Positions 8,559-64,000 of a stretch of DNA of 64,000 nt are shown here, piece after piece. Source of the DNA: Isoperla grammatica (lineage: Eukaryota > Arthropoda > Insecta > Plecoptera > Perlodidae); NCBI GenBank assembly GCA_945910005.1, contig OX246741.1:51238625-51302624 (forward strand), read 5' to 3'. The position numbers and the translations under genes are program-made. The notes below the pieces were generated by a model. It was not told the DNA's origin. It worked only from the letters and a program-made list of their open reading frames with translations, and did not search any database. Each line of letters starts with the position of its first letter. The stretch's first letter is position 1.

Positions 8559-8559
8559 A

Positions 8560-10042: not shown

Positions 10043-10072
10043 GCAATAAGTTTATAAACTTTTACATGTAGG

Positions 10073-20921: not shown

Positions 20922-21122
20922 TGGCATTAATACGTATGCACATGGACATTATAAATCATTTAAGAATTAATAACTGGACGTGAAAAGTGCGAAAAATAAA
21001 CATAGTTGATATTACGAGATGACAAAATTTAGTATGTTGCATTTTTACATTCATTAAATTTTATCTTAGTCAATCGTAGGGAGGTAATTGTAATTAATTA
21101 TTTCTGACCAAGGGAAATTGTG

Positions 21123-21130
21123 TATATAAG
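21123..21130 (+). promoter_or_regulatory. TATA box of 158-aa ORF, right arm
   Basis: TATATAAG lies 71 bases before the ATG of the 158-aa ORF and is mirrored in the left arm at about 11853-11860. Confidence 0.55.
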
Positions 21131-21200
21131 TTTGCCACAAGGAAATAGAAAGCAGTACTGAAAGTGCATCTACACAGGAATTAGAGTAATTGCTTGCACT

Positions 21201-21677
21201 ATGTGTTTCGGTAAAGTTGTAGAAATAAGAGAAGGGGGTGTACTTCCTCATGTTGATTTCTTTGACAATGGATTAGCGTTAGAAGAATTGGATCCAGGTC
21301 CAGACATGGATTTAGCAGTCATTGAAGTGGACGTGGACACAATGAGGCGTTTACGTTTTCCAGAATTTCTAAACATGTATTCGGACGAAATGTACTACTT
21401 TGCGTTTTACGATAGTAACTGCGTTTTGATGAAATACATAGAGTACGACATTGCTATCAATCTTTGCGAAGAATGTGGACCTGAACTTCGAGATGAAAAA
21501 TGTCTATCTTATATGTATTGTGTGACAAGTATACGAAGTTTGGACGAGATTGAAATCATCGAATTTTTGATGAATGAGAATCATTGGTGTTTCAACTGCA
21601 AGGAAGCACTTTGGAAAATACAGGACTCAAACGAGTGTTGTCATGTGAATGATTTCGATTCTTGTAATTTTGAGTAG
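21201..21677 (+). CDS. Unknown 158-aa acidic cysteine-rich protein, right copy
   Basis: This is an intact ORF immediately downstream of the polymerase remnant, in the same direction. It is acidic, with CxxC pairs CEEC and CFNC and a Cys-containing tail (ECCHVNDFDSC), suggesting zinc binding or disulfides. A TATA box lies 71 bases upstream and AATAAA at 21689-21694 follows the stop by 11 bases, so it is built as a self-contained transcription unit. It has no recognisable Polinton counterpart such as capsid, protease or ATPase. The function is unknown. Confidence 0.55.
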   Translation: MCFGKVVEIREGGVLPHVDFFDNGLALEELDPGPDMDLAVIEVDVDTMRRLRFPEFLNMYSDEMYYFAFYDSNCVLMKYIEYDIAINLCEECGPELRDEKCLSYMYCVTSIRSLDEIEIIEFLMNENHWCFNCKEALWKIQDSNECCHVNDFDSCNFE

Positions 21678-21688
21678 TATCTATCTTA

Positions 21689-21694
21689 AATAAA
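21689..21694 (+). terminator. Poly(A) signal of 158-aa ORF, right arm
   Basis: AATAAA lies 11 bases after the TAG stop. The mirror is at about 11289-11294. Confidence 0.65.
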
Positions 21695-21879
21695 GTAGTA
21701 GTAGAACACAATGTAATAGTAGTAGTAAAGAAAAGTATAAATATTGAGTTGAAAAAATTGATGTATGATTTATTAAAATAAACAAAATATATTTGGATAT
21801 TTTGTTATCATTAACCTCTCTTATTGCTACGAGTTTGGAATGCGTATGTATGACACATTTGCAAGTCTCGACAGGTTTG

Positions 21880-22055
21880 CGTGACGTCACGCTAAACAAG
21901 TGTGGGCGGGGCTTTCTTTGTGTCAACCAATCAGGTAACAGTTTCGCTGCATTACCGCTAGCCGCAGTCAGCACCGGAGCGGAGCGGAAGAGCCTACTCA
22001 TTCAAGTTCGAGAGTTCTAGGGAGCAAGTTCTGTTTGTCGGTGTGAGCTATAACC
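21880..22055 (+). promoter_or_regulatory. Promoter of 284-aa ORF, right arm
   Basis: The palindromic CRE TGACGTCA (21882-21889), GC box GGGCGGGGC (21904-21912) and CCAAT (21927-21931) are spaced as in a compact viral or housekeeping promoter. The leader leads to ATG at 22056 with A at -3. Confidence 0.65.
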
Positions 22056-22910
22056 ATGTTTTGGAAACCTACACATGTTGCCACCGAGGGGGAATCTCAA
22101 CTCAGCAACAGTAGCAGACCGAAACCATACTCGAGGCCTCCTCCTGCAGATGTCAAGCAGACCAGCAATCTTCACCGGGCCAGCACAAACAAGATGGAAT
22201 CTCAGCATGGATACTTCACCGAGAAGAATGTGTTCAACGCAGTGAGTGAAATTAAAAAGAAACCTAACATTGTCCTGAGAAAAAGCTTATTTGAACTTAA
22301 TGATTCTAAAACAAAATTTATTGTTGTTGGTTTACACAAAGATGCATTCTTTCAACCTTTTGTGGAGATCAGAGGTTTGAAGAGACAAAGTGTTAAGTTC
22401 CACACTGAAGCATGGAAAGAGTTTGCACGTGAAATCGAACTTCTTTCATCGTACGTGTTCAGTTTAACAGAGGATGAAGTAGTGAATATACCAGACAAAT
22501 ATTTGTGTACCAATGTGTTGTTTGTTAAGATGTACATGGGAAATGTAGTTATAGGCTTGAGATCGTTATGTGATGATCAACAAGGTATTTACCTGAGTGA
22601 AATTTCATGCATAAATTTAATAAAATATTCAACAGTTATAACATCTATTCTGAAAGACCATGAATGTGGATACCGTCAACTTTATGCATGGTACTGTGAC
22701 TTTGTGGTAGATGTCAACAATAAATATGGTGCATACATACGCGACTTTGAAGAGAAAGAAGGAGTGATGCCCATTTCAATTCAACAATTTGTGCGAAAAC
22801 ATATGCATAAGATGAACTGTGAAAACGAATGTGTATCGTTGGATTTCGAATATATACTTTATGAACTTGGTGCATCCAACATTGTAGATGATCTTGGAAA
22901 TATTCAATAG
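22056..22910 (+). CDS. Unknown 284-aa Polinton-associated protein, right copy
   Basis: This is an intact ORF. The N-terminal 46 residues are Pro/Ser/Arg-rich. The rest is a compact soluble protein with no signal peptide or transmembrane helix. The FVEIRGLKRQSVKF segment followed by a Trp-containing helix is the only hint of a PC4-like nucleic-acid-binding fold, and I hold that loosely. A second start at residue 47 (MESQHGY) would give a version without the disordered tail. It is the outermost protein gene of the arm, transcribed toward the element end. AATAAA follows at 22941-22946. Its preservation in both arms suggests function or very recent duplication. Confidence 0.6.
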   Translation: MFWKPTHVATEGESQLSNSSRPKPYSRPPPADVKQTSNLHRASTNKMESQHGYFTEKNVFNAVSEIKKKPNIVLRKSLFELNDSKTKFIVVGLHKDAFFQPFVEIRGLKRQSVKFHTEAWKEFAREIELLSSYVFSLTEDEVVNIPDKYLCTNVLFVKMYMGNVVIGLRSLCDDQQGIYLSEISCINLIKYSTVITSILKDHECGYRQLYAWYCDFVVDVNNKYGAYIRDFEEKEGVMPISIQQFVRKHMHKMNCENECVSLDFEYILYELGASNIVDDLGNIQ

Positions 22911-22940
22911 CCTACATGTAAAAGTTTATAAACTTATTGC

Positions 22941-22946
22941 AATAAA
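22941..22946 (+). terminator. Poly(A) signal of 284-aa ORF, right arm
   Basis: AATAAA lies 30 bases after the TAG stop. Confidence 0.7.
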
Positions 22947-23944
22947 TGTAAGAATTGGGTAAACTTAATATTTGCATTTGTTTTTTCAACCTAATGTTTT
23001 CTGAATTTCCCTTACTCTATATTATTGGAATAGATAGTAGTGTATTGTACTTTGAACTTGCAGGATATAACTTGCAAATATTTTCTTCTCGCGTCTAGTA
23101 GGAGAAAATATCGAATTAAATAAATCATTTGGGAAATTAAAATAGTTTTGTAATGAGGTGGTTGTCGTGAAAGGGCATATATTTTAATTCGTTCATCAGC
23201 TTTCTTGACTATTGACTAATAATATACCTAGTCTATTAATAGATAAAAGTGAAAGTATTATACATAAACTTCGAGCTGTAACGTGTAAGGCGCGTGGGAT
23301 GGGCTGGCTAGGTAGCAAATCTTCGTTATTTACATTCTCTATATTTACAGGAGTAAAGTCAAAATCACTCTATAATACATCCAATACTTGGGAATCAGTG
23401 GCTGGCACAAAGCTTGGTAAGATCGTTTCCAAAATTTCATCCATCTTAAATGTATCAAATATAATTACTAGTTTTAACACAACCAAAAGTTTATTCCTCA
23501 AGCATTATAATGTCATCATCATCGTCTGCGGCAGAGGTTCTCTCTATAGCTACTAGAGCGCACTGCTGTATATAAAATGGTGGCTGTAGTTCTCTTATTA
23601 GCTACTAGGGCGCGCCAGTGTACAAGACTGCCGAGTTACAATTGCCCCTTGTATCAATGCAGAAAGTGTAATGAAGCTTGTTGAGACTTGGTCACATGAA
23701 TTTAGCAAACCTTGCAAATCACACGTAGCAACGGTCATTCGCCTGAGAACACTGACATTTGCACGTGTTGGACTTTGATCGACCACTTAACAAAAACAAT
23801 TAATTAATAGCCGAGCTCATCAAGCTATTAAGCTCTGCATAGAAAGTTGGACTTTGAACGAACAATTAACACAAGCTATTAACTAATAGCCGAGCTCAGC
23901 AAGCTATTAAGTTATATACACATTTTAACACGTACTCAGTAACT

Positions 23945-24037
23945 TGTCTCGGTAGCCGAATGGTTAGCGTGTCTGCTTATGGAACTGAAGGTCCGGTCTG
24001 GCTATGGTTCGAATCCACTCGTCGCCAAAGTTTTTTT
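23945..24037 (+). ncRNA. tRNA-like Pol III transcription unit, right arm
   Basis: A-box TAGCCGAATGG (23953-23963), B-box GGTTCGAATCC (24006-24016) and a T7 stop (24031-24037) are present. Spacing is tRNA-like, but the 5' and 3' ends do not pair into an acceptor stem. It mirrors 8921-9013, so each arm has one, near the terminus and pointing outward. Confidence 0.55.
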
Positions 24038-24403
24038 ACAAAGTGTCTTCACTTGGCGGCAATAGTTACTTCATTAGCTACTAGAGCGCGCTAGTATAGC
24101 GGGAAAATTTGAATATTCAAAATGGCGGCAGAGGTTCTCTCAATAGCTACTAGAGCGCACTGCTGTATACAAAATGGCGGCCATGAAAACAAAATGGCGG
24201 GGGTGCGACGTAAGTGGTCACGTGGGCCCCCTCCCCCCCCCCCCTCCCCTCCCCTTAGGTTACTGACCTACCTCAAGAGGGGAAGTGGCACGTGCCCTGA
24301 GGTCAATAACCTCGGTGGCTAAGTGGCACGTGCCTAGTGACACGTGCCTGAGGTCAATTACCCCGGCGGCCATCTTTGACTCCATAGTGCCTCACTACCT
24401 ACT

Positions 24404-29028: not shown

Positions 29029-30881
29029 GTGGTAGAGTGGTAGAGTGGTAGAGTGGTAGACTGGTAGACTGGTAGACAGGTAGACTGGTAGACTGGTAGA
29101 CTGGTAGACTGGAGGACTGGTAGAGTGGTAGTGGTAGACTGGTAGACTGGTAGACTGGTAGACTGGTAGACTGGTAGACTGGTAGACTGGTAGACTGGAG
29201 GACTGGTAGAGTGGTAGTGGTAGACTGGTAGACTGGTAGACTGGTAGACTGGTAGGCTGGTAGACTGGTAGACTGGTAGACTGGTAGACTGGTAGACTGG
29301 TAGACTATTAGACAGGTACACCGGTAGACTGGTAGACTGGTAGACTGGTAGACTGGTAGACTGGTAGACTGGTAGACTGGAGGACTGGTAGAGTGGTAGT
29401 GGTAGACTGGTAGACTGGTAGACTGGTAGACTGGTAGACTGGTAGACTGGTAGACTGGAGGACTGGTAGAGTGGTAGTGGTAGACTGGTAGACTGGTAGA
29501 CCGGTAGACTGGTAGACTGGTAGACTGGTAGACTGGTAGACTGGTAGACTGGAGGACTGGTAGACTGGTAGACTGGTAGACAGGTAGACCGGTAGACTGG
29601 TAGACTGGTAGACTGGTAGACTGGTAGACTGGTAGACTGGAGGACTGGTAGAGTGGTAGTGGTAGACTGGTAGACTGGTAGACTGGTAGACTGGTAGACT
29701 GGTAGACTGGTAGACAGGTAGACCGGTAGACTGGTAGACTGGTAGGCTGGTAGAGTGGTAGGCTGGTAGACTGGTAGACTGGTAGACTGGTAGACTGGTA
29801 GACAGGTAGACCGGTAGACTGGTAGACTGGTAGACTGGTAGACTGGTAGACTGGTAGACTGGTAGACTGGTAGACTGGTAGACTGGTAGACTGGTAGGCT
29901 GGTAGACCGGTAGACTGGTAGACTGGTAGGCTGGTAGACTGGTAGACTGGTAGACTGGTAGACTGGTAGACAGGTAGACCGGTAGACTGGTAGACTGGTA
30001 GACTGGTAGACTGGTAGACTGGTAGACTGGTAGACTGGAGGACTGGTAGACTGGTAGACTGGTAGACAGGTAGACTGGTAGACTGGTAGACAGGTAGACT
30101 GGTAGACTGGTAGACTGGTAGACTGGTAGACTGGTAGACTGGAGGACTGGTAGAGTGGTAGGCTGGTAGACTGGTAGACTGGTAGACTGGTAGACTGGTA
30201 GACTGGTAGAGTGGTAGGCTGGTAGACTGGTAGACTGGTAGACTGGTAGACAGGTAGACCGGTAGACTGGTAGACTGGTAGGCTGGTAGACCGGTAGACT
30301 GGTAGACTGGTAGACTGGTAGGCTGGTAGACTGGTAGACTGGTAGAGTGGTAGGCTGGTAGACTGGTAGACTGGTAGACTGGTAGACTGGTAGACAGGTA
30401 GACCGGTAGACTGGTAGACTGGTAGGCTGGTAGACTGGTAGACTGGTAGACTGGTAGAGTGGTAGGCTGGTAGACTGGTAGACTGGTAGACTGGTAGACT
30501 GGTAGACAGGTAGACCGGTAGACTGGTAGACTGGTAGACTGGTAGACTGGTAGACTGGAGGACTGGTAGAGTGGTAGTGGTAGACTGGTAGACTGGTAGA
30601 CTGGTAGGCTGGTAGACCGGTAGACTGGTAGACTGGTAGAGTGGTAGAGTTGTAGAGTGGTAGACTGGTAGACTGGTAGACTGGTAGACTGGTAGACTGG
30701 TAGACCGGTAGACTGGTAGACTGGTAGACTGGAGGACTGGTAGGCTGGTAGAGTGGTAGTGGTAGACTGGTAGACTGGTAGACTGGTAGGCTGGTAGACC
30801 GGTAGGCTGGTAGAGTGGTAGAGTGGTAGTGGTAGACTGGTAGACTGGTAGACTGGTAGGCTGGTAGACTGGTAGACTCGT
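29029..30881. repeat. 8-bp minisatellite array, unit GTAGACTG
   Basis: About 1.85 kb (roughly 230 units) of GTAGACTG is present, with variants such as GTAGAGTG, GTAGGCTG, GTAGACCG, GTAGACAG and GAGGACTG, and occasional 6-bp units (GTAGTG). An 8-bp unit without stops keeps long minus-strand frames open (LPVYQSTS repeats, up to several hundred residues). Those are not genes. The left edge is in the gap. Confidence 0.95.
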
Positions 30882-30889
30882 ACATCTCA

Positions 30890-33976: not shown

Positions 33977-34396
33977 TGTCGTGTTGGTCCAGTGGTTAGC
34001 ATCCCTGCTTCCAATGTAGAAGGTCCCGGGTTCAGATCCCGTTTCAGGCAGAAGTTTTTTAACTTCTAATATGGATTCAATTCCATCACTTCTTGTCGTA
34101 GGAATAAGTAAACGGTGACTTTGGAGCCGTCCTAGCAACGAAGCACTCAATAAATTCAAAGTTGTTCTGAATCGGCCTTGTTGATTCCGACATTTGTCCG
34201 CACGTGTTCGCACTGTCCAATCCTGATTCATATGTTTTGTATTTGAAATATCGATCTTTGATTGGCTATCGCTCACTCGCCGTTGGTGTTCGGAGCCTAC
34301 AGGGTTGTTTTAGTCGCTTTCAATTAAAGTCTCCCACTGCAAATTAGTTAAGTTACTGAGTGGGTAGACTCTAAATGTGAATTTATTTATTTATTT
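33977..34396 (+). mobile_element. tRNA-derived SINE, copy 1 (most complete)
   Basis: The tRNA head has A-box TGGTCCAGTGG and B-box GGTTCAGATCC. The central block is GTAAACGGTGACTTTGGAGC / CTAGCAACGAAG. The 3' body ends ACTGAGTGGGTAGACTCTAA and a (TTTA)n tail. Four other copies lie at 37.9, 40.6, 42.0 and 45.5 kb. The ORF on the opposite strand is a shadow. Confidence 0.8.
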
Positions 34397-35744
34397 CTAT
34401 TTAAAATAATTAAATGTAGGCATAGAAAGACAAATGTTCGTGGTGACATGACTGACTACTTCTAGAGTTCTTATAATAATGCTAAGGGTTTTCTGCGAAA
34501 TATGCAAACAGATACATAGAACATAATTATTGTAACGGTGAACATAATTTGCATATGATTTTGAAACCAATGAGCTAGATATACTGTCAATGAAAAGTGA
34601 AAGACAGCTAAATGGAATAGAAAGAAGCGATATCGAAATTGAGGTGAGAAACTGAAAATAATAAGATTAAATGCTATATTATATATCATTTTATCAAATT
34701 TATGAGGAACATATTGCTGAAGACCTAAAGACGAGAGGAGAGAACTGGGAGCAAGTAGAGGAAGAATGATTGTGGGAAGATAGGAAGAGGTGGGAAGATT
34801 TGTCTGTGAAACCCAAGCTGACCCTGCCAGAAGCAGGAAACGGATCAAATGGATCAAATTTTATCAAAGCAAATTAATTTCAAGATTTATTATGAAGGAG
34901 ATAACATACATGGGTTGTGCGCTTTCATCTCCACTGAAACCAGACCAAACAACTCGAAACGAAAGAAGAAACACAGCAAAGCAACTCATGTCTACAAGTG
35001 GCAGACAGAGCGACGTCCCACTGCGTGAGGTCTCTACCGCAACTACTTACTCTCTGCCGTCGCCGCTGTACACACTCACCGACAGAAAGCAAAAAACAGT
35101 TTCGCTCACATGTTTTTGTTTGTTTGCACTGCGGGTGTTGCTCCGAACAACAAACACCACTTAGGTGTAGTTTTAAATCGTCGTTACTTCCATATGTGAA
35201 GCCGCTGTCGTTAATGGATATGAAAAGGAAAACAAAACGGAAAGTTTGTTGAAGTTTGTATTAACTTGGCTGTATTTCAAAGATTATCCCAGGGGTCTAA
35301 CCTAGATGATTAGTCTTGGTATGACGAAATGCGATTACTGCATTGCACGTGTTTTATGACACGTGTGACCGGCGGGTGACACGTGGTGTCGTTTATAGAT
35401 CTGGATCACACGTGTGACTGTTCGAGAGGTTGTCGGTTCTATTCCCAGAACGTTAATCCTAACTAGCAAGTTTTAGTATTCATCAGTCAGAACGTGAATT
35501 CTGGGGTCCATTTTGAAAATTTCTTCGAAAGTATTAAAACACGCTCATACCACGTGAGTAAACTACTGGCTAGTCTTGCGCACTAAATATCTAAGCCAAT
35601 CAGCGGTTGGGATATCAAATCAGCTGACAAATAAAATATTTAGTTTTTACTCAAAGACCGGGCAATAATTTGGTAAACTTGATTTGTGAAAACGAAACAT
35701 TATTTATCATCAATAAATCTTTTAGTCTTGTGGGTTTATTTTGA
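34397..35744. other. Noncoding stretch
   Basis: Two ORFs of 124-128 codons exist on opposite strands (34471-34857 minus, 34790-35164 plus), but neither has domain-like sequence. CACGTGT motifs cluster at 35347-35417, and a B-box-like GGTTCTATTCCC lies near 35434. Confidence 0.4.
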
Positions 35745-36720: not shown

Positions 36721-37895
36721 GCTGCCAAAGTAACTTATTCTCTCGTTGTAGGTGATTTGATTAAAGAATTGTGTGATATAATCCAACAACGATTACTCTA
36801 GGTTTCAATTCTTTTAATAATCGCATTTTGTTCAATAAATTTAATTTAATTTAAAATCATTTTTATTCTTTATTTTCTTAACAAAAGTACACACAAGTAA
36901 TAACCAAAAACACAAAATGTATCACAAATGAAAATTTAAGACATAATTCCACAGAGAAAAGAACCTCATGTAGAGTAAAAGCCTTGTATGTGGACTGAGA
37001 AACTAAATGAAGAATCTAATCTAGTTTTAAGAATGAGATTTTGTGCAATATTTCCAGATTTTCTTTCAAATATTAGTAAAACAAGATACACACTCAGGTA
37101 ATTTCACCCACTCTGTACAGGCGATGACTATCCAAGACTTGACACCCCTGACTTTAAGCCTTATCGACCATTTCAAGTCAACTTTCCCGTACTACAATAA
37201 TATGAGAGTTCAATAATTCGTGCTCATCCGGGACTATCGGTAATCTAAATTGTACACAGTTCCATTCAGCTCGGATTACTGGTTCTTTGTTAAAACTAGG
37301 GTTGGTTTTGTGTTAACTTATATGTTGTGATTATTTTCATAAACAATGGACGTTCATGATTACCAAATAATATATATTTTTTTTTAAATTTTTATGTTGC
37401 TTTGAAAAAAAAAAGTTTGTTTAAATATCTATGTTGGTTTGAAAAACACTCATGATTTTTCTTCTTTTCTTCCAGTCTTAACATTTCTTTTTATATGTCG
37501 GTTACAACATACGCATGCCGTGGTACGTATTCCAAACTTTGTCCGTCTCTCTTATTAGTCCGTTCCTTTCGCCATTGAGTTATATTCTCTAGTATCCTTT
37601 GACCCTTCTATTCTAAAACTGGGTCAAATTAAACGACTATTCAGTAAAAGCTGACAAAATCTTAAGTCTATCGTAGACAGCATAAGACGCATAGGCTTAA
37701 TATTTAATTGTTTCCGTTCGGATCACAAAGAAAGCAATTTAAAATCTAAATTAGGAAAAGCGACGTGGGTAGATATTAATACACTATCTGGATTGTGTCC
37801 TAAAATTGTGTTGTGCTTTCATTTAATGAGAATATCTTGACATCTCAGCATCCGCTGCCTTTCTCAGACACGAGGGTGGTAGATGAGGGTGCAGT
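36721..37895. other. AT-rich noncoding DNA
   Basis: I see no ORF of interest, no splice-bounded exon and no transposon terminus. Confidence 0.5.
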
Positions 37896-38229
37896 AAATA
37901 AATTTAAAAAATAAATTCGTATTTATAGAGTCTACCCACTCAGTAATAAAACAGATTTTCAGTGGGGTACTATAATTTAAAGCGACTAAACCAACCCTGT
38001 AGACTCCGAACACCATTGACGAGTGAGCGATAACCGATCGGTATTTCAAATATGAAACACATGAATCAGTGATTGGATAGTGCGAACACCTGCAGACAAA
38101 TGCCCGAATCAACAAGGCTGATTCAGAACAACTTTGAATATATTGAGTGCTTTGTTGCTAGGACGACTCCAAAGTCACCGTTTGCATATTCTTAAGCCAA
38201 GAAGTGATGGAATTGAATCCATATTAGAT
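37896..38229 (-). mobile_element. tRNA-derived SINE, copy 2 (5'-truncated)
   Basis: This is a minus-strand copy of the body and tail of the 33977-34396 family, including the central block (CGGTGACTTTGGAGTCGTCC). The tRNA head is missing. Confidence 0.75.
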
Positions 38230-41982: not shown

Positions 41983-42395
41983 ACATTAAACCTGCTTTCA
42001 ATGCAGAAGGTCCCCGGTTCAAATCCCACTTCAGGCAGAAGTTTTTTAACTTCTAATGTGGATTCAATTATATTACTGTTTGGCTTAGGAATAAGTAAAC
42101 GGTGACTTTGGAGCCGTCCTAGCAACGAAGCACTCAATAAATTCAAAGTTGGTGTGAATCGGCCTTGTTGATTCTGGCATTTGTCCGCAGATGTTTGCAC
42201 TGTCCAATCACTGATTCATATGTTTCGTATTTGAAATATCGATCTTTGATTGGTTATCGCTCACTCGTCGATGGTGTTCGAAGCCTACAGGGTTGGTTCA
42301 GTCACTTGCAATTAAAGTCCCCCACTGCAAATCAGTTAAGTTACTGAGTGGGTAGACTCTAAATGTGAATTTAATTATTTATTTATTTATTTAAG
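41983..42395 (+). mobile_element. tRNA-derived SINE, copy 4
   Basis: The head is truncated at its 5' side but keeps the B-box GGTTCAAATCC. The full body, central block and (ATTT)n tail match the 33977 copy. Confidence 0.8.
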
Positions 42396-45196: not shown

Positions 45197-48172
45197 TTAT
45201 TCAAAACAATTGTTTACTGTGATATTCATCTGTGGTTGATGAATATGTAGCCCGTTAAACATGTTGAGCGACTGTACAACAGCGTTGAGTGCGACCGAGC
45301 GAGGTACAGACGTTTTAAACATGTTGTTGATGGTGAGGTTGATGTGCGGCTGATGTATGTGCGTGCTGTTAAACATGTTAGTGGACGGCGCATGCGCAGT
45401 GTCGACCTGAGCAATGGCCGCTACGTCTCGCCTCACGCGGTCAGCTGGCGTTACCTGAAACAAAATGGTGGGGTCAAAATGGCGTTTTAGCTCCATTAAA
45501 TAAAACAAATAAAATAAATTCACATTTAGAGTCTACCCACTCAGTAATGAATCCGATTTGCAGTTGTGGACTTTAATTTAAAGGAACTAAACCAACCCTG
45601 TAGGCACCAGACACCATCGGCGAGTGAGCGATAACCAATCAAAGATCAATATTTCAAATACGAAACATATGAATCAGTGATTGGACAGTGCAAACACCTG
45701 CGGACAAAAATGTCAGAATCAACAAGGCCGATTCAGAACAACTTTGAATTTATTGAGTTCTTCGTTGCTAGGACGGCTCCAATGTCACCGTTTACTTATT
45801 CCTAAGACAACAAGTAATGGAACTGAATCTTTATTAGAAGTTAAAAACTTCTACCTGAGCCGGGATTTAAACCCGGAACCTTCTGCATTGGAAGCTGGGA
45901 TGCTAACCACTGGACCAACGAGCCACCTCTGTTAAGGTCCGTATTTATAGTCTTCCCCTACCCCTCGAGACGCCCGTTGTCCCCAGGCTTGCAAGTTGTT
46001 TCCCATAAAGAAAACACATCCTTAGCAACAACGGGCGCCCCTAGAGGTAGGGGACGAGTATGAATTCCAGCCTAAGGGCCGGTTTTTCATTCAGTTGTTA
46101 TACAAACAGTCCGTAAGCATGACCAGCGCTTTTACCAACTTGGCAATTAAAAATGAATTTACAAGTAAAGCACATATTTAATATGCTTTTTCTAGTTTAA
46201 ACTGAAAAATAATTTAAATTTGAGAAGATAACAATCTTAAAGGGATAGTCAGATGAAGAACTAAAAAATCACCAATTAGTCATTAGTCCATGAAATTCAG
46301 TTGCGTGTAAAATACAATTGATATAGGTTGCTTCAATGCAAGAAAAAAAATAGTGAACAATTAGCTATTCTACAGATTCCCTTCGGCAGCTCTTGCTGCA
46401 TTTTTCTTCTAAAGCGTAGTGTAACTGTATCGGTTCTGAGGTCGCTGGCGCCTTCCCGATAGACAAAGAACTCATTGTGTTATACGAGACCTGCCCGCGC
46501 TCCGCGAAACACTCGACGACTGCGGACAGTACCGCTCAAAACAGATTGCAACTTTTCTACACATCATGTCACAAAAAAATTAATTGCAGGATATTTTGTA
46601 GAAGTAAACGTTCGTACTAAGAAGCATGTTATCGGTAGAGAAACGATGCACATTAAACCTCTTGATCGATTTTTGATCAGTGCCCTATTTTAGCGGTGGT
46701 TTTACTTTCTCAAGGCAACATTTTTTTTATATGGGAATTACCATGAGAAAAGTTGCTCGGTGCTACTTGGTAGCACCAAACCAAATAATCGCGTTTTCTT
46801 TAATTTGTTTAACCGCCTGCTTTTAAAGTATGGTATCTTTTAGTCATGTTTTTTATATTTAAAGGTGGACATCTACAAATGGTAGTTCTTTAGTTTTTCA
46901 CCCGACTATCCCTTTAATAACTACAACTAAGTTTTCATTTTATTAAATACACTAGTGCAAATGTTTAATAAATTGAAAATCAATTAGTGTATATATGTTT
47001 TTGTGGTTGGCTGTTATTTGTTGAGATGTGTGTAGTCATTTGTTAATCTCACAAAGATTTTAAATTATGATGTACACTTTACAGTACCGGAACTCAAGCG
47101 ATTTTCTTGCTGCAAACATTTGCGCGCGCAGATCCTCGTTACATATGGGCGACATAAAGCCGATCAAGTAGTACGTCTACTACAACTTGAGGTAGATATT
47201 ATAATGGTAAAGAACGTATGTCGACCCTATCACCGCTACGCCGCGCTTGTGTCACCGTGCGCAAGTTTTTCAATGGAGTTTTTGGTACTGTCCGTGGTAT
47301 TTACAAACCACTATTTTGTCTCGATTAGCATCGTTTCCAAAATATAGAACGGTTAGGTCAAAATGTTATTATCAGCAGAAATAAGCATTTCCGCGATTTT
47401 AATAATTCTTATATATCTTTGTTTTTAAAGTAAGTGTTTGTCACTGGAACCGTAAAAAGCGTAGCATTTCAAAGTCCTTCGTTAGTATTAAAAAACTGGC
47501 AATCAAATTTAGATTTCTGATTTCAAAAACACACCCGATACATACTATAAGTTCATCAGATATCCACAAAGATATTTTCTTTTACTTTCTTGATCATAAA
47601 CGAGTATTTCGGCTAAAAGGTAATTTTCAACAAAAATAATGTTACATTGTTAATACATTTTAATTTAAATTGCAATCATTACATTTGTTTGTTTGTAATT
47701 TTTGCTTCAGCTACTTATAATTTGCGGCAACTTATACCAGTTAGGTTAACAGTAGTTAAGCGAAATTCGTATGTAATGGCCTATATAAGTTTGTTAACTA
47801 CGTTCACATTACATTCTTATAACAGCAGTTAGTAGCTTAACTTCCGTTAGTGACCGTAGTGTGAACAAGGTACTAGAAACCGAATAAATACTCAGGAAGT
47901 ATGAAATGTATGTCAGACTAGTGTGTATCTGGAGGCCTCTCATTCGAGAAGTAACGTCCCATAAGAATTTCTTTGAGAATCATAAGATGTGTTGTTGGTA
48001 TTACCCTCTTGATCCTCACCTCCATGTTCTGGGCTCTGGGGACGCCGGTTCGAGGCGACAGCTGTTCCCTGATCCCGCCCTGGGACTCCCTCCCTCTAGG
48101 TGGCCACACCGCCACTGGCAGCGCTAGTGTCGCTACCAGGCACAGCGACAACAACAGAAGGCTGTGCTCCAT
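45197..48172 (-). CDS. Secreted precursor gene B: signal peptide, RVRR site and duplicated Asn/His-rich repeat (2 exons)
   Basis: Exon 1, 48172-48020, encodes 51 residues starting MEHSLLLLSLCLVATLALP (signal peptide) and ends ATGGAG/GTGAGG. Exon 2, 45454-45197, follows TTTTGTTTCAG and encodes 85 residues to a stop. Both junctions are phase 0, giving a 136-aa precursor. Exon 2 begins VTPADRVRR, a furin site, and then carries two 21-residue repeats of pattern NMFNxxHIHQPx(I/M)Nx, T, (I/V)NNxF (residues 26-46 and 64-84 of the exon), with N-glycosylation sequons NST, NLT and NIT. An acceptor TTTTCAG lies 8 bases before the ATG, so the first exon is untranslated and further upstream. The family is not recognised. 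Candidate roles are antimicrobial peptide or hormone. The 2.6-kb intron holds a SINE and two transposons. Confidence 0.6.
45498..45926 (-). mobile_element. tRNA-derived SINE, copy 5 (inside gene B intron)
   Basis: This is a near full-length copy of the 33977 family on the minus strand, with tRNA head (TGGTCCAGTGGTTAGCATCC) and tail (AATAAAATAAATTCACA complement). It starts 44 bp upstream of the exon 2 acceptor. Confidence 0.8.
45955..46078. mobile_element. MITE family 'GTTGTTGC...CCCCTA', copy in gene B intron
   Basis: TATTTATAGTCTTCCCCTAC and GAGACGCCCGTTGT are inverted at the right as ACAACGGGCGCCCCTAGAGG and TAGGGGACGAGTATGAAT. It is related to 40121-40242 and 55800-55943. Confidence 0.65.
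46241..46913. mobile_element. TTAA-flanked DNA transposon (Kolobok/piggyBac-type), non-autonomous
   Basis: The left end AGGGATAGTCAGATGAAGAA and the inverted right end AGGGATAGTCGGGTGAAAAA are present. Direct TTAA flanks both ends (46237-46240 and 46914-46917). No transposase ORF is visible. It lies in the gene B intron. Confidence 0.7.
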
Positions 48173-52525: not shown

Positions 52526-53217
52526 CTTTGTCTCGCCATTATACTGGCGGTTTATCCTTGACCTTGCAACTTGTCTCGCCATTATACTGGCGGTTTATCC
52601 TTGACCTTGCAACTTGTCTAGCCATTATACTGGCGGTTTATCCTTGACCTTGCAACTTGTCTCGCCATTATACTGGCGGTTTATCCTTGACCTTGCAACT
52701 TGTCTCGCCATTATACTGGCGGTTTATCCTTGACCTTGCAACTTGTCTCGCCATTATACTGGCGGTTTATCCTTGACTTTGCAACTCGTCTCGCCATTAT
52801 ACTGGTGGTTTATCCTTGACCTTGCAACTTGTCTCGCCATTATACTGGCGGTTTATCCTTGACCTTGCAACTTGTCTCGCCATTATACTGGCGGTTTATC
52901 CTTGACCTTGCATCTTGTCTCGCCATTATCCTGGCGGTTTATCCTTGACCTTGCATCTTTTCTCGCTATTATACTGGCGGGTTATCCTTGACTTTGCAAC
53001 TCCTCTCGCCATTATACTGGCGGTTTATCCTTGACCTTGCAACTTGTCTCGCCATTATACTGGCGGTTTATCCTTGACCTTGCATCTTGTCTTGCCATTA
53101 TACTGGCGGTTTATCCTTGACCTTGCAACTTGTCTCGCCATTATACTGGCGGTTTATCCTTGACTTTGCAACTCGTCTCGCCATTATACTGGCGGTTTAT
53201 CCTTGACCTTGCATCTT
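52526..53217. repeat. 43-bp minisatellite, about 16 copies
   Basis: The unit begins CTTGTCTCGCCATTATACTG and ends TTTATCCTTGACCTTGCAA. It is nearly uniform, with a few variants (TTGACTTTGCAACTC, TTGCATCTT). It begins about 120 bp beyond the poly(A) signal of gene C. Confidence 0.95.
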
Positions 53218-56934: not shown

Positions 56935-57417
56935 ATACAATCTCGGTCAAAACCGGCGTTAACATGTTATACGGACGTAACGTCAAGTATTTCCATGTGT
57001 CTACCTTATTTAACGTCACTAATCACATGTCACTAGTTTAAACAGTCATCAATCTCGGTCAAAGCCGGTGTTTACATGTAATACGGACAATACCGATGTA
57101 ATGCCAAGTATTTCCATGAGGTACCTTGTCCAACTTCACTCGTTACTGTCTTATTAGTACTTGTTCATAGTATACACTGCATAATGATATGATCTTATTT
57201 CCGTTGTCTTCGTGTGTGTCTTCTTTGCGTCGTGTTACTGTGTGTACGGTCGTGGCCGATTTCTCGATACTATCCTAGTAATTCTACTCTATGGACAATG
57301 GAAAACCACGAAAACCATGTCAGGATAGATGTTGTCTCGAAGGATTCACTCTCATAAGTTTAAACTAGTTCTAAATGTTCTTCGGTATGTGAATGTTCAC
57401 GTCATGTTCTGTCAAAA

Positions 57418-57495
<78 letters not shown>

Positions 57496-58258
57496 AGTAT
57501 TGTTTACTATACCATTAAGACCACATAAGGGCGAAGCTTGGGGATGGCGTAGGCCCCAGACACCCCTGACTGTTCAGAAATCCAAGAGCCACTAGATAAA
57601 CCTTATAAATGAAACATAAAAACAACTCCATGGCTATGTTGTGGATCTTACACCCAAACCCAATGTGGAAAGCTTTTGGTACACATTCAGGTTTTGCTGT
57701 TTACATTCTGTGATGGTCTCCTAGGGTCGGCGTTCGACCCTAATGGCGTCTTACTCAAAGTAAAATCAACAAACACGAAGTTTGCCCACGGGGAACCGTA
57801 TATTATGCATGACACGATGTGTACAAGTGTAGCTCGCGCCTAGAACCCACAACTCGAGTAGTGTGGGGAAAGAAAACGTCTAGCTGAATACGAAATATAC
57901 TATCTATACTATATTGATACTAGTATTATCGATTCATTTTTGTTGAAGTTTTTAAGAGCATTCGGCAGTAGTTTTGAAACTCATTACTAAACTAATAGTA
58001 GGATTCTTATAAATATTTATTTACAGACGGGTGTAAGTACATTTTTTGAAAAGTCTGTTAAATTAGTGTACACATTTTGAGTTGTGCAAATAAATTACTT
58101 TTGTCGAAAATGTTCAACGAAATAATATGGAGATCCTAATAAAATATGTACACATATTTTTGAACAGTTTGGACACAAATTTACTTACACCCACTCGTAC
58201 ATATATGATATTTCAGTACAAGTAGGTTAATATTTGTAATAATCCTACTATTAGTTTA
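56935..58258. other. Noncoding DNA with a second (ATT)n tract
   Basis: CGGTCAAAACCGG / CGGTCAAAGCCGG blocks near 56.94 and 57.06 kb form a direct repeat (followed by GTTAACATGT or GTTTACATGT). An (ATT)n tract lies at 57420-57494. No supported exon is present. Confidence 0.45.
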
Positions 58259-58387
58259 GGGCCCGGTTTTTCAATCGGTCATTAACGGGGTCGTTAGCTG
58301 ACGGTCCGTTATCTGCATAGGGTGTATTGGGCTACATATTATGGGCCGTCAGCTAACGGCCCCGTTAACCGATTGAAAAACCGGCCC
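58259..58387. mobile_element. MITE, GGGCCCGGTTTTTCAATCGGT ends (copy 2)
   Basis: Same family as 54488-54628, inserted after the same TAGTTTA target. The left TTA flank is clear and the right flank is TGA, possibly mutated. Confidence 0.7.
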
Positions 58388-58599
58388 TGAGAGTACTTAG
58401 ATTACAACCAATACATCTGTAAAACGCCTGCTGCCTAACGCTTTCAACCATCAAGAACATATGTATTATATCAATAGCAGTATTTACTCACTTATCACTT
58501 AGGGGTTCTTTTGCTTAAATTGTTAGAAACTGTCCCGTAGGCCGTAACAAATGTGGTGTTCATTTTGCAACCGCTTTCTGTTTAGTTCATCAAGTTGCA

Positions 58600-58728
58600 T
58601 TTAACGTCGGCGTATAGCGTAAGTGTTTGACCAATCAGACTTCGTTACGGTGATATGACTCCTTCCCTTTTTACTTTAGTACGAAGCCTGATTGGCCAAC
58701 ACCTTAGGCTAACCATCAGTGTAAGAGC
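58600..58728. mobile_element. Diverged short foldback element
   Basis: GCGTAAGTGTTTGACCAATC and AGACTTCGTTAC on the left pair imperfectly with TAGTACGAAGCCTGATTGG and CCAACACCTTAGGC on the right. There is no ORF. Confidence 0.45.
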
Positions 58729-58963
58729 TGGAAAACCCAACATCACATATTAAGTTCCTTTTTTTATTTGTAAGTAGAGATAAACAAATAATTTGCACGG
58801 CTGTTTTATTTGTCACATTGTGTTGTCACTTCAAAATACAAATAAAATTAGTATTAAGTAAATTTGAGAGGTTTCAAATATATTATATTCATGTATAAAT
58901 ACAATTTGTCGGACACGGATGGGACACAAAAAACCATATAATATGAAGTATTAATATTGTTGG

Positions 58964-59356
58964 ATGTCCAAACATCCATGTATATTCAAGTATACAGTGA
59001 ACTCTCAACACAATAAGATACACGACAATTTATTTGAAATGTTGAATCAAGAGATAGTTTTAAATATATGTTATTCTTCCATAAAACTTGACACATTTAA
59101 GTGCACAATTTCCTTTCCAAAAAATGCAAATGTTCCTTTGAAAACTAATGTTAAATGTGTTTGTACCCATTCCTTGTTCACGTTCATTTTTAAACAACTA
59201 CATTGCCCAATATTTATTATCGGTATAGATATCTATGCAGCAGTTCTTCCAAGGTTTTGGCATGCTCAGCGTTTGGATGTATCTTTTCTTCAAACAAGAG
59301 ACAATCTCTTGAAAGTGTACAACATGTCAGTAAATAAGTTGGTATTGTTGTTTTAA
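58964..59356 (+). CDS. Uncertain 130-codon ORF
   Basis: This is the longest plain ORF in the right part, starting MSKHPCIFKYTVNSQHNK. It contains several Cys, no signal peptide and no motif I recognise. The AT-rich context makes a chance ORF plausible. Confidence 0.2.
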   Translation: MSKHPCIFKYTVNSQHNKIHDNLFEMLNQEIVLNICYSSIKLDTFKCTISFPKNANVPLKTNVKCVCTHSLFTFIFKQLHCPIFIIGIDIYAAVLPRFWHAQRLDVSFLQTRDNLLKVYNMSVNKLVLLF

Positions 59357-59729
59357 TACTCTCTCATTGTGAAGAGTTGACACGGTGGGTTGGGGGTGGG
59401 GGGGGTTGAGGGGTGGGGTAGAGGAAATGACAATGGCTCACATGCAAAGTATCTCTTGCAGAGAGTCAGTTTTATGATTCCTAGCTTCCACTCGTCTATA
59501 ATCCGACATGTTACTCTCCATTAAATTTCTACTAAATTATCAGAAACTCGTCTTCTCCACCGAGATGAAGATCACCACTGGCAATAGTTTGGAACACACG
59601 ACACAACCAACAACCATGTTGTAAGTAGTTGTTGAAAAAAACACGGTATGAAACTCCAGCATTGGACAATGCGGTTTCAATTCACCACTACAAGAACAAG
59701 AACAACCACCAACATATGCTAATATATTC

Positions 59730-59735
59730 TTTATT
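59730..59735 (-). terminator. Poly(A) signal of the proline-rich peptide gene
   Basis: AATAAA on the minus strand, 222 bases after the terminal stop at 59958. Confidence 0.6.
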
Positions 59736-59957
59736 GATACATCTATGCAGAAGCTGAACAGTAATCAAAACGTTATGTAAACAATTTATCCTTTCACTTA
59801 AAAACAAAAGCATGTACTAGAAGCCAAACATAATACCGGTTATATTGCAGAAATATGGCTCGATTACTCGAGAAAGATAGGCGGACTATTGCCACTTGTA
59901 AGAGAACAGAATTACGGGATTGAGCTTGGATTGTTCTTTGTGTTTCTATTCTTTTGG

Positions 59958-60619
59958 CTATTCTTCTTTGTTTGGTCCAGCAAAGTGTGGATTGTTTACA
60001 CGCACTCGGCTCAAAATATCCATAACCTGTAACAACAACCAATACGCATTAATACAAACCGAACCATTGAGAGGACATTTTGAGGCGATCGTACCGGGCA
60101 TGTACCTCCTTTTTCACATCATCATAGTCATCCGCGGACCGTCCAAGGCGAGTTAAGAAGGGTCGGGGTCTTGGTCGAGGGAGGTAGGTGGGGCCGTCTT
60201 TCCTTTTCACGCGGTCCAAAGCCCCCAGCGTCTGAAACAATCAATAGTAATGTCAGACTGTACAGATAGTATGTTCAGTTCTTGACTGGGTTAAGACCGC
60301 CAGTCCATTCTACATTCATAAGGCATCAAATAAATGCAAGAAACACACAGTTTTAAGCTATTAAATGGCGTTTGCAAAGCTTTAAAAGTCATCCTCAAAT
60401 TAACTTAACTGTCCGAGCACTAGTCACTTGGCCATTTCTTGACCTAGGTCCCACCAAAACGTATACCTGTTTAACACGTCCAGGTTTAAACAAAATTTAT
60501 TTCAAATGTAGGCCTATGTTAAAATAAACCTTGAATTTCTTTTCAAATTATATTTTTTTTTAAATGTTCACATTATATTACTTTAAGGTTAATGGAGATG
60601 TCTACCGTGCGACAACTAC

Positions 60620-60652
<33 letters not shown>

Positions 60653-63162
60653 TATAATAATAATAATAATAAATGTGCTTTATTTGGAAATAAGAACAAG
60701 TTTCACAAAATGGCGAGGTTCTAACAAACAGTTATCTCTTCCACCTAATCATACATACGGCTTCCGTGTTTAGTAACTAAGGTAATTCTAATGTTATTAA
60801 GTTAATTAAGATAAATAATTTTTAATTTTATCATCATGTATGCTTAATGCTATTAAGACTCAATTACACACTTTTACAATATTAATTAAACAAGACTTGC
60901 AAAAATAGATTATTATGAAGCTTATTAATTCAAGAATAGATTGTTATGACCCACAATATAATACATTTGGGTAGATACTTGATCTTCTTTCAACTAATTT
61001 TAAATAACGACTAATCTTAATTAATAATAGTGAACAAATTACTATGAGGCTTCGAGATGAATCTAGTTAAGGGGAGAACACAGATTTCAATAACAGTATA
61101 TACATGAAGTAAACCCAAGAAATCTGCAAGTTAATATATTAATATACCTCTTGCCGCTCTTCAGCATACGCGGACCGTCCAAGGCGAGTTGATAAGGGTC
61201 GGGGTCTTGGTCGAGGGAGGTAGGTGGGGCCGTCTTTCCTTTTCACGCGGTCCAAAGCCCCCAGTGTCTGAAACATTCAATAGTAATGTCAGACTGTACA
61301 GATAGTATGTTCAGTTCTTGACTGGGTTAAGACCGCCAGTCCATTCTACATTCATGGGGCATCAAATAAATGCAAGCAACACACAGTTTTGAGCTATTAA
61401 ATTGCGTTTGCAAAACTTTAAAAATCAACCTCAAATTAACTTAACTATACGAGTACTAGTCACTTTGCCATTTCTTACCATGAGGTCTCGCCAAAACGTA
61501 AACCATGTTTAAAAATTAAAACGTCAAGTTTAAAAAAATTAATTTAAAAATATAATATGTTAAAATAAACCTAAAATTTATTTTCAAATTTCATTCAAAA
61601 AAAAATATTTTCCCATTATTTCATTTTTAGGTTAATGCAAATGTCTACCGTGCGACAACAAGGGGAGAACACAGATTCAAATAACACTGTTCGTGAAATA
61701 AACGCAAGAAATCCGCAAGTTAATATATTAATATACCTCTTGCCGCTCTTCAGCATCCGCGGACCGTCCAAGGCGACTTGAGAAGGGTCGAATCGGTCTT
61801 GGACGAGGAAGATAATTGGGACCGTCTTTCCTTTTCACGCGGTCCAAAGCCCCCAGTGTCTGAAACATTCAATCATTGCTAACAAGGTATAAGGCCGAAG
61901 GTAACTGGGGCCGTCTTTCCTTTTCACGCGGCCCAAAGCCCCCAGTGTCTGAAACATTCAATCATTGCGAACAAGGTATAAGGCCGAAGGTAACTGGGGC
62001 CGTCTTTCCTTTTCACGCGGTCCAAAGCCCCCAGTGTCTGAAACATTCAATCATTGCTAACAAGGTATAAGGCCGAAGGTAACTGGGGCCGTCTTTCCTT
62101 TTCACGCGGCCCAAAGCCCCCAGTGTCTGAAACACTCAATCATTGCGAACATCTCCGAAACATTCAATTGCGAACAACACCAGGTATAATGCACTGTATT
62201 ATTACACTGTACTGTACTCTTTTAACAGTGTAATATACCTCGGTCTTGGTCAGCTACCCATACAACAGAAGTACTGCTACTTACTTCGCGAAGTGTTTGC
62301 CTCCTACATTCACAATGCGTATACTTACAAGTGCAGTATACAGTGGTTGCTAAAGCCCACAGCTTGAGATTTGCTAAAAAGCCTTCTGCCAGTTCCAAAA
62401 TTAAAACCTCCAGCACCTAAAAATCTTTTCCTCAGATATCCTGCTTCTGCAAATCAGATAATAGCGGGAAATATGAATGCCGTAGAAGTGGACTACTTCT
62501 TCAGCCGTGTACAGAGGAGTGAATTACTCACATGCTGAAGAACTATTTGAGTAGCATTGAACCCGATGATTATGGTGGTGATGGTGATGGTGATGGTGGT
62601 CCTATACATCAATGGGCGTCTCAGGTCAAAGCTGAAGTAGGTTGCAGCACCTGTCCTTAAAGGTCCAACTTTGTGATTCATTCTTTGTTAAATATTGTCG
62701 TTAGTCAACTGTCTAACTGTCAAACGACAATATGTTTGTTTTGTATCTATAACAAAGGTATTGTCCGTCAAAAATTTGTAAAACATTACTTCAATGGATG
62801 ATTTATATTTAAACGTATTAAATATGAACGACTTGAATGTTTGAATTGAGAAAACGAGGTGCAAAGATCGAGTTGGACCCTTCAGTACTGCTAGCGCTGC
62901 GAGCGGCAGAAAGTCGCGCCTAAGACGCCCATTGTGAAAAAAGTCTATTAAAGATAGTATAGGAACTAGAGAAGTATAAAATGAAGTTGGTTCCATTGCA
63001 CTCTTCTAGGTCGTAAGTATGGGGACACTTACGATGGGTCAACCTATCTTATGGTACCATTCTTACCTCATGGGACAAGTCTTGCTCGGAGGCTGTGCGG
63101 TCGCCTCCATGTACCACGTGACAGACGCTCACAACGAACAGTACCAAGACGAGGCGGTGCAT
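59958..63162 (-). CDS. Multi-copy proline/arginine-rich (oncocin-like) peptide precursor, gene E (5 exons)
   Basis: Coding exons on the minus strand: 63162-63067 (32 codons, signal peptide MHRLVLVLFVVSVCHVVHGG, donor GAG/GTAAGA), 61859-61737 (41), 61267-61148 (40), 60231-60106 (42) and 60026-59958 (22 plus TAG). Every junction is phase 0, so any number of middle exons keeps frame. The predicted precursor is 177 aa. Each middle exon reads TLGALDRVKR, a furin site, then a Pro/Arg-rich peptide, then RLGR, a second RxxR site whose Gly could become a C-terminal amide. Predicted peptides are KDGPTYLPRPRPRPFLTRL, KDGPTYLPRPRPRPLSTRL and KDGPNYLPRPRPIRPFSSRL. The YLPRPRP core equals that of oncocin and resembles pyrrhocoricin and apidaecin, which block bacterial ribosomes. 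A neuropeptide role is the alternative. Acidic spacers (SADAEERQE, SADDYDDVKKE) are typical of multi-peptide precursors. Confidence 0.7.
60106..60231 (-). CDS. Peptide exon 3 of gene E (last copy)
   Basis: Bounded by TTGTTTCAG and GAG/GTACAT, 42 codons. It differs from the other copies in the peptide tail (PFLTRL) and a longer acidic end SADDYDDVKKE. Confidence 0.7.
60242..61147 (-). other. Intron of gene E, part of a 1036-bp tandem duplication
   Basis: Sequence next to the exon 3 acceptor (AATAGTAATGTCAGACTGTA, GACTGGGTTAAGACCGCCAG, CTACCGTGCGACAAC) is repeated 1036 bp further right next to exon 2 of the peptide set. It contains an (ATA)n tract at 60621-60672. Confidence 0.7.
61148..61267 (-). 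CDS. Peptide exon 2 of gene E
   Basis: Bounded by ATGTTTCAG and CAAGAG/GTATAT, 40 codons. It encodes TLGALDRVKR, the PLSTRL-ending peptide, LGR and SAYAEERQE. Confidence 0.7.
61737..61859 (-). CDS. Peptide exon 1 of gene E
   Basis: Bounded by ATGTTTCAG and CAAGAG/GTATAT, 41 codons. It encodes the variant with PRPRPIRPFSSRL, one residue longer than the others. Confidence 0.7.
61886..62152 (-). pseudogene. Three truncated peptide-exon copies as an 89-bp tandem array
   Basis: Units start at 61886, 61975 and 62064. On the minus strand each keeps the acceptor ATGTTTCAG, TLGAL(G/D)RVKRKDGPSYL, then switches to RPYTL and loses the PRPRP core and the donor. Alternating variants (GCCCAAAG/GTCCAAAG, GCGAAC/GCTAAC) suggest growth by two-unit steps. 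Confidence 0.65.
62660..62882. mobile_element. Foldback MITE in gene E first coding intron
   Basis: The left AAAGGTCCAACTTTGTGATT is inverted at the right (GCAAAGATCGAGTTGGACCCTT). Just beyond, CAGTACTGCTAGCGCTGC matches sequence in the 6.5-kb MITE in inverse orientation. The 102-codon ORF across it is not protein-like. Confidence 0.5.
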
Positions 63163-63174
63163 GGCTTACTAGAT
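63067..63174 (-). CDS. Signal-peptide exon of gene E
   Basis: Acceptor TGTGTTACAG ends at 63175, 12 bases of leader precede ATG 63162, and the donor GAG/GTAAGA is strong. It encodes MHRLVLVLFVVSVCHVVHGG and a short acidic pro-segment (DRTASEQDLSHE). Confidence 0.7.
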
Positions 63175-64000
63175 CTGTAACACAATAGCGGCCTTTACAC
63201 GTACACTCTTGCTCGGAGGCTGTGGGGTCCCCTCATGTACCACATGACAGACGCTCACAACGAACAGTACCAAGACGAGGCGGTGCATGGCTTACTAGAT
63301 CTGTAACACAATAGCGGCCTTTACACGTACACTCTTGCTCGGAGGCTGTGGGGTCCCCTCATGTACCACATGACAGACGCTCACAACGAACAGTACCAAG
63401 ACGAGGCGGTGCATGGCTTACTAGATCTGTAACACAATAGCGGCCTTTACACGTACACTCTTGCTCGGAGGCTGTGGGGTCCCCTCATGTATCACATGAC
63501 AGACGCTCACAACGAACAGTACCAAGACGAGGCGGTGCATGGCTTACTAGATCTGTAACACAATAGCGGCCTTTACACGTACACTCTTGCTCGGAGGCTG
63601 TGGGGTCCCCTCATGTACCACATGACAGACGCTCACAACGAACAGTACCAAGACGAGGCGGTGCATGGCTTACTAGATCTGTAACACAATAGCGGCCTTT
63701 ACACGTACACTCTTGCTCGGAGGCTGTGGGGTCCCCTCATGTACCACATGACAGACGCTCACAACGAACAGTACCAAGACGAGGCGGTGCACGGCTTACT
63801 AGATCTGTAACACAATAGCGGCCTTTACACGTACACTCTTGCTCGGAGGCTGTGGGGTCCCCTCATGTACCACATGACAGACGCTCACAACGAACAGTAC
63901 CAAGACATGCATGGCTTACTAGATCTGTAACACAATAGCGGCCTTTACACGTACACTCTTGCTCGGAGGCTGTGGGGTCCCCTCATGTACCACATGACAG
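63175..64000 (-). repeat. 126-bp tandem array of duplicated signal-peptide exons
   Basis: At least six full units (period 126 bp, from about 63208) plus a partial one continue past the window edge. Each keeps TGTGTTACAG/ATCTAGTAAGCC, the ATG and MHRLVLVLFVVSVCHVVH, then, through a one-base deletion relative to the first exon, continues EGTPQPPSKS up to a possible AGT/GTACGT donor (also phase 0). One unit has a 9-bp in-frame deletion after ATGCA (about 63906). Units are almost identical, so the array is young or homogenised. Confidence 0.85.

Follow-up and report, generated by a model that had tools for sequence, protein, structure and literature searches.

Short exons that each encode one proline- and arginine-rich peptide raise the question of what precursor they build and how its products would act. 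Such a series of exons lies on the minus strand at positions 59958-63162 of the 64,000-nucleotide stretch of chromosome 5 (C9) of the stonefly Isoperla grammatica analyzed here, which we call the window. Our analysis indicates that these exons form a gene for a secreted polyprotein of proline-rich antimicrobial peptides (PrAMPs), probably of a Type I-like kind, as in oncocin, and probably C-terminally amidated. A previous reading of the DNA letters alone (the sequence-only reading) had proposed a PrAMP gene in a possibly non-insect animal; its multi-peptide precursor with an oncocin/pyrrhocoricin-type core is still the best reading, with a residue register that fits Type I, but the non-insect host did not hold up.

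Gene structure and predicted processing

The gene model (copy A) has five exons: a signal exon, three peptide exons and a short last exon. The signal exon (63162-63067) has 32 codons including the ATG and yields the product MHRLVLVLFVVSVCHVVHGGDRTASEQDLSHE, comprising a signal peptide assessed by eye (MHRLVLVLFVVSVCHVVHG) and an acidic pro-sequence; it ends in the phase-0 donor GAG|GTAAGA. All peptide exons share one layout: TLGALD, RVKR, a 19-20 residue peptide starting K-D-G-P-[T/N]-Y-L-P-R-P-R-P, the dipeptide GR and an acidic tail. Exon 1 (61737-61859; 123 nt, 41 codons) reads TLGALD-RVKR-KDGPNYLPRPRPIRPFSSRL-GR-SADAEERQE, exon 2 (61148-61267; 120 nt, 40 codons) TLGALD-RVKR-KDGPTYLPRPRPRPLSTRL-GR-SAYAEERQE and exon 3 (60106-60231; 126 nt, 42 codons) TLGALD-RVKR-KDGPTYLPRPRPRPFLTRL-GR-SADDYDDVKKE, all on the minus strand. 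From the exon coordinates, the corresponding predicted mature peptides 1, 2 and 3 occupy 61770-61829, 61181-61237 and 60145-60201, respectively.

The four predicted introns are all phase 0 and have GT/AG ends; their donors read GAG|GT and their acceptors TTTCAG or TTACAG. The least certain exon is the predicted last one (59958-60026, minus strand; VMDILSRVRVNNPHFAGPNKEE, then a stop), behind a 79-nt intron that appears to be the weakest splice call of the model. If this intron is not spliced, the frame of exon 3 runs on to ...VHARYDRLKMSSQWFGLY (...MSSQWFGLY) and a stop, with the peptides unaltered.

A second copy of the gene (copy B, C9:51202795-51207430) lies about 95 kb from copy A and comprises four peptide exons between a signal exon and a last exon that is the same as in copy A. 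The signal exons of the two copies are 88% identical at the protein level; the last exons are identical, so their conservation is uninformative. Over both copies we count seven full-length peptide exons (3 + 4), all with an open frame and GT/AG ends, using a search pattern that itself required splice sites and excluding the partial copies found in arrays. The signal peptide, the phase-0 exons, RVKR, the YLPRPRP peptides and Gly-Arg are all present as the sequence-only reading had described them, at exactly the coordinates it gave, and the multi-peptide precursor is thereby confirmed at the level of the DNA.

Processing of this precursor would involve removal of the signal peptide and cleavage by a furin-like protease after RVKR and after RLGR, the latter being a minimal R-x-x-R site. 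A carboxypeptidase would trim the Arg, and the exposed Gly would be converted to a C-terminal amide. Because cleavage at RLGR leaves this Gly, the predicted mature end is -RL-NH2, as in products such as KDGPTYLPRPRPRPFLTRL-NH2, with a charge of +5; for peptide 1, likewise, the amide is predicted from the Gly that follows. The acidic spacers (SADAEERQE-TLGALD) may keep the precursor inert. The processing sites resemble furin sites of known antimicrobial peptide precursors (PMC9233930). Natural insect PrAMPs are, in the sources consulted and with no wider search for natural amides made, either unmodified or glycosylated: apidaecin (Api) is described as "unmodified" (PMC11549390), metalnikowins are unmodified and pyrrhocoricin is O-glycosylated (PMC11678341). 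The amide of oncocin is one of three designed changes and was added by chemists to improve the peptide (PMC11678341), whereas that of the stonefly peptides is predicted to be natural.

Similarity to Type I peptides and proposed mode of action

In composition the stonefly peptides are typical PrAMPs (25-26% Pro, 20-21% Arg, a charge of +5 if amidated, overlapping PRP motifs), encoded behind a signal exon. Given cleavage after RVKR, which leaves Lys1 and sets the residue register, all seven full-length exons encode YLPRP with an Asp four residues before the Tyr (Tyr-4). Further, all seven have Leu at Tyr+1, with Arg at Tyr+3 and Tyr+5.

An ungapped alignment with oncocin, its register unchanged, gives 11, 9 and 9 identities for peptides 1, 2 and 3, and the score is reached by only 4, 11 and 13 of 50,000 shuffles of these peptides, respectively. 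Good scores were also obtained with metalnikowin (corresponding counts, in the same order, 6, 25 and 17), apidaecin (18, 47 and 31) and residues 1-16 of the mammalian PR-39 (61, 7 and 17); drosocin did not stand out (4,336, 4,027 and 5,209). When YLPRPRP was held fixed in the shuffles, Asp fell at Tyr-4 in 8% of them, and 1.5% had both this Asp and a Pro at -2; compared with the core alone, the register is therefore only a modest further argument.

The peptides of Heteroptera that act by the Type I mode, namely oncocin (Oncopeltus peptide 4), pyrrhocoricin, riptocin and metalnikowin, share with the stonefly peptides D2 and Y6-L7-P8-R9-P10, the cationic character and a similar length (PMC7736402); oncocin also has R11-P12 in common with them, whereas metalnikowin 1 has R7 in place of L7 (PMC7736402). 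The stonefly peptides differ in K1, G3 and their C-terminal part, and come from Plecoptera, not Hemiptera. The run YLPRPRPRPL of four of the seven stonefly peptides recurs identically at the end of consP1 (VRKPPYLPRPRPRPL-CONH2), a proline-rich parent compound for antimicrobial design that also has an amide, as predicted for the stonefly peptides; consP1, however, is synthetic, has another N-terminus without the Asp and lacks the STRL end (PMC8711299).

A second group of natural relatives in kind are the Dro-like Type I peptides of the subgenus Drosophila, which, like the stonefly peptides, have an Asp at Tyr-4, Tyr-Leu (in Dal2) and a penultimate Arg, but have a PRPT core and an N-terminal Gly where the stonefly has PRPRP and Lys, and have been found in Drosophila only (PMC13233979). 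Multi-copy precursors are known from both groups, with 14 repeats for riptocin (PMC8767025) and 3-10 repeats in some Drosophila species (PMC13233979).

Outside insects, the mammalian peptides PR-39, Bac7 and Tur1A are comparable; PR-39 has the core PPYLPRPRP, and its residues 1-16 score as well as oncocin against peptides 2 and 3. These three are made from single-copy cathelicidin precursors of vertebrates. Since a core of the YLPRPRP type is found in mammalian cathelicidins, it can arise independently.

What the shared residues do is known from ribosome complexes: the Asp at Tyr-4 of oncocin and Dal2 contacts G2553, mimicking C75 of the tRNA, and the Tyr-Leu of Dal2 occupies the space of the formyl group of formyl-methionine (PMC13233979). 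In the chimera DalDro, deletion of the Asp or replacement of the Leu at Tyr+1 by Ser turns a Type I peptide into a Type II peptide, which arrests ribosomes at stop codons (PMC13233979). Neither residue is missing from any of the seven stonefly peptides, and a Type I action with arrest at start codons is therefore predicted. After uptake by Gram-negative bacteria, the peptide would occupy the exit tunnel of the ribosome in the inverted manner of Type I, which would bring Asp2 close to the A-loop and Tyr6-Leu7 to the peptidyl transferase center, and would stop the ribosome at start codons.

An alternative within the PrAMPs is that these peptides work differently, by the Type II mode (release-factor trapping via a penultimate Arg and a terminal Leu), against DnaK or in mixed orientation. 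In all seven peptides Arg-Leu precedes Gly-Arg, and an Arg in the penultimate place is what Type II peptides use (PMC11549390, PMC13233979). The sole match in a sequence search of the PDB was the apidaecin-like Fva1, with a non-significant E-value of 1.7, and apidaecin is among the closer matches by the shuffles given above. Yet a penultimate Arg is also found in Dro-like Type I peptides (PMC13233979), amidation would abolish the free carboxylate by which Fva1 and Api contact tRNA and RF1, and the Asp and Leu that favor Type I in DalDro are both present (PMC13233979). None of the peptides has the PRPPHPRL of apidaecin; their C-termini are RPFSSRL, RPLSTRL and RPFLTRL, followed by Gly, and conservation of the Arg-Leu may reflect nothing more than the RLGR cleavage site. 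We consider such another mode unlikely.

With respect to gene structure, the closest known system is the apidaecin gene of bees and wasps, in which a conserved N-terminus is followed by a variable number of one-peptide exons whose products end in -RL, as in the stonefly (PMC1847501). The stonefly model likewise places one complete peptide in each exon behind a shared N-terminal exon. In contrast to the stonefly gene, apidaecin has the spacer RREAEPEAEP and unmodified products that end in PRPPHPRL with a free carboxylate and trap release factors (PMC11549390). The common architecture does not show common descent. Only as a tentative proposal, we suggest that stoneflies have an independent family of Type I ribosome blockers that combines an apidaecin-like one-peptide-per-exon gene with a natural C-terminal amide, some of whose members may bind the tunnel in either direction; the latter is possible because the N-terminal Type I residues co-occur with a penultimate Arg and a terminal Leu.

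Constraint, duplication and the remaining alternatives

The split between peptide exon 1 and exons 2/3 is old enough for silent changes to be measured. In the core KDGPxYLPRPRP of copy A, this comparison gave 6 silent changes in 9.5 sites and 1 replacement in 26.5 (ratio of replacement to silent changes per site, pN/pS, 0.06; Fisher p 0.0003), and in copy B 5 silent changes and 1 replacement (pN/pS 0.07, p 0.003). Over the whole stretch from RVKR to GR, pN/pS was 0.19-0.24 in four exon comparisons, which share data and are hence not independent; over the first 36 codons, p ranged from 0.003 to 0.10. From the end of the core to GR, the exons of copy A differ by 2 replacements and one codon in length, with 0 silent changes.

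This pattern bears on a further alternative, namely that the gene encodes an amidated neuropeptide or hormone, for example of the -RLamide or FxPRLamide (pyrokinin) kind. Neuropeptide precursors also carry repeated peptides, and pyrokinins have the motif F-x-P-R-L-amide; the multi-copy precursor, the predicted amidation and a terminal -F-x-x-R-L-amide in three of the seven peptides recall them. However, a Pro before Arg-Leu is found in none of the seven, and the constrained half is the N-terminal one with YLPRPRP, not the C-terminal one, the reverse of what we would expect for an amidated neuropeptide. As the peptides also match oncocin in register, we regard a neuropeptide as rather improbable.

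By its sequence, copy B is a recent duplicate. The duplicated segment covers 57417-64000 of the window and, in copy B, C9:51200249 to at least 51223997. The similarity of the copies begins within an (ATT)n run at 57417 and extends for at least 15 kb, past the signal exon and its array; this left end fits a genomic duplication, although it was compared over only 249 bases of copy B beyond that point. Another possibility is that copy B is a second haplotype left in the assembly of I. grammatica, from which 47 haplotypic duplications were removed by hand (PMC13033136); in the honeybee, too, the number of apidaecin exons differs between two sequenced haplotypes (PMC1847501).

Both copies have tandem arrays derived from their exons. 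Upstream of the signal exon of copy A, a minus-strand array of 126- or 120-bp units runs from 63080/63163 to the window end at 64000 and on to about C9:51307402; most units lack the GAG|GT donor but contain the signal sequence with its ATG and an acceptor. Copy B has an equivalent array of 126/120-bp units at C9:51207430-51218358. In a motif search, the array of copy A gave 46 unit starts and that of copy B 88, each number including the full exon; these are lower bounds. The acceptor TGTTACAG is present in all of them (46/46 and 88/88), the ATG with 28 open codons in 44/46 and 81/88, and AGT|GTACGT in 45/46 and 79/88, whereas the donor GAG|GT[A/G]AGA occurs in just one unit of each array (1/46 and 1/88). 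All 93 genomic matches to the signal sequence at E-values up to 0.001 fall within the two loci. A further minus-strand array at 61808-62151, about 3.9 copies of 89 bp, repeats the acceptor and the first part of peptide exon 1. The reading frame is lost in those of its copies that lie upstream of the full exon; such partial copies occur in both gene copies and are not among the seven exons. The 126/120-bp and 89-bp arrays look like local tandem expansions, and together with the varying exon number they would show how PrAMP genes get rebuilt.

A genome-wide search for the YLPRPRP DNA pattern gave 34 places, compared to 11 for a reversed control, and seven of the 34 are the seven exons. Along with the second gene copy, recent as it is, and the surplus of silent over replacement changes in the core, this speaks against a mere chance pattern. 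The other 27 were rejected as further genes: many are CCTAGGCCTAGG-like repeats, and the four whose context was translated (L066, L082, L083, L085) have nearby stops and lack the RVKR...GR layout, the other 23 having been assessed from the matched letters only. L083 (C13:8533356-8533375) is a lone YLPRPRP in which ARRKVYLPRPRPG lies in a short frame reading ...YEAARRKVYLPRPRPGQEVK and a stop; it has basic residues before the motif and a Gly after it, probably by chance.

Several observations weigh against a Type I-like PrAMP gene. Positions 1 and 3, Val and Lys in oncocin, are Lys and Gly in the stonefly peptides, the sequence beyond residue 12 is unlike known Type I peptides and, apart from R-L-G-R, shows no constraint between exon 1 and exons 2/3, and the C-terminal -RL recalls Type II peptides. 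The match to two of the heteropteran peptides is weaker for peptides 2 and 3, the shuffles reaching the score being 5, 459 and 407 of 50,000 for pyrrhocoricin and 16, 1,205 and 1,160 for riptocin. Copies A and B differ by 4 silent changes and 11 replacements (pN/pS 0.94, exon 2 of A being paired with exon 3 of B), and their exons are 2.8% diverged, no less than alignable nearby introns and flanks (0-7%); one further intron stretch is hardly alignable. We judge this comparison of the two copies uninformative on constraint.

Nor did searches beyond the locus add support. As a sign of immune induction, kappa-B-like sites were sought with four patterns, none of which matched in the copy-A gene and its array or in the upstream stretches covered (9.6 kb for array A, 1.6 kb for array B); at most 1.7 matches per pattern and region were expected by chance, and the promoter or transcription start was not located. 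No Pfam family matches the precursor, and searches of a protein collection, run without a positive control and with uncertain coverage of insect precursors, found no relative (660 candidates, none with an E-value up to 1; 1 candidate, none up to 10). Because of this result we claim for the stonefly peptides a Type I-like working, not descent from the heteropteran family.

It is very improbable that we are dealing with a repeat-rich duplicate that has decayed or is not expressed, and whose frames are intact only through the recency of its duplications: the lack of constraint between copies A and B, the degenerate 89-bp and 126-bp arrays inside the gene, the missing kappa-B motifs and a possible haplotypic origin of copy B would agree with this, but the older split between exon 1 and exons 2/3 is constrained in the core, all seven full-length exons have kept their frame, and the left end of the A/B similarity in the (ATT)n run, within the 249 bases compared, fits a genomic duplication.

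Host lineage, novelty and other features of the window

That the host is an insect is evident from its mitochondrial gene order and its odorant receptors. The mitochondrial contig (16,163 bp, code 5) has the order I-Q-M-ND2-W-C-Y-COI, the ancestral one of insects, and the 7tm_6 family of insect odorant receptors has 122 exon-level matches in the genome and none in 14 control genomes. These two findings rule out a non-insect animal, in accordance with the assignment to I. grammatica (Plecoptera). Beyond the mitochondrial contig, COI has 34 matches (L034, L035 and others), many with stops, which are apparent nuclear insertions.

The sequence-only reading had also considered the arrangement undescribed. 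This is true only in part: one peptide per exon is known from apidaecin and multi-copy Type I-like precursors from riptocin and Drosophila. Among the papers listed in a literature search that covered few subscription journals, we found no stonefly PrAMP and no YLPRPRP-core gene of such a layout, and the insect sections in the outline of a review of invertebrate PrAMPs are confined to Diptera, Hemiptera, Hymenoptera and Lepidoptera (PMC11678341). What would be new is Plecoptera as an order, a Type I core in a gene with one peptide per exon, and the amidation signal. If our reading is correct, such natural antibiotics are made by stoneflies as well, and an oncocin-type gene in this order would point either to an older mode of ribosome inhibition in winged insects or to convergence on Y-L-P-R-P, as with PR-39 and Bac7. 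Developers of PrAMP antibiotics would be interested in a scaffold with a natural amide and a match to a designed consensus core, and since the peptides are short and easily synthesized, the ribosome prediction is directly testable.

Elsewhere, the window holds further repeats. An inverted repeat lies at 8559-15747 and 17237-24403; its 7.2-kb arms are 99.4% identical and contain open frames in mirror image (287, 171, 115 and 114 codons), for which Pfam gave no match over the cut-off. At 29030-30882, an 8-base unit (TGGTAGAC) is repeated about 234 times, and the frames there give long Ser/Thr/Pro/Tyr repeats, and a 43-bp tandem repeat with 16 copies, 95% matching, lies at 52528-53217. Finally, a dispersed element of 0.3-0.4 kb occurs at 33983-34404, 37895-38228, 41991-42394 and 45496-45919, with 85-89% identity in the inverted pairs compared.

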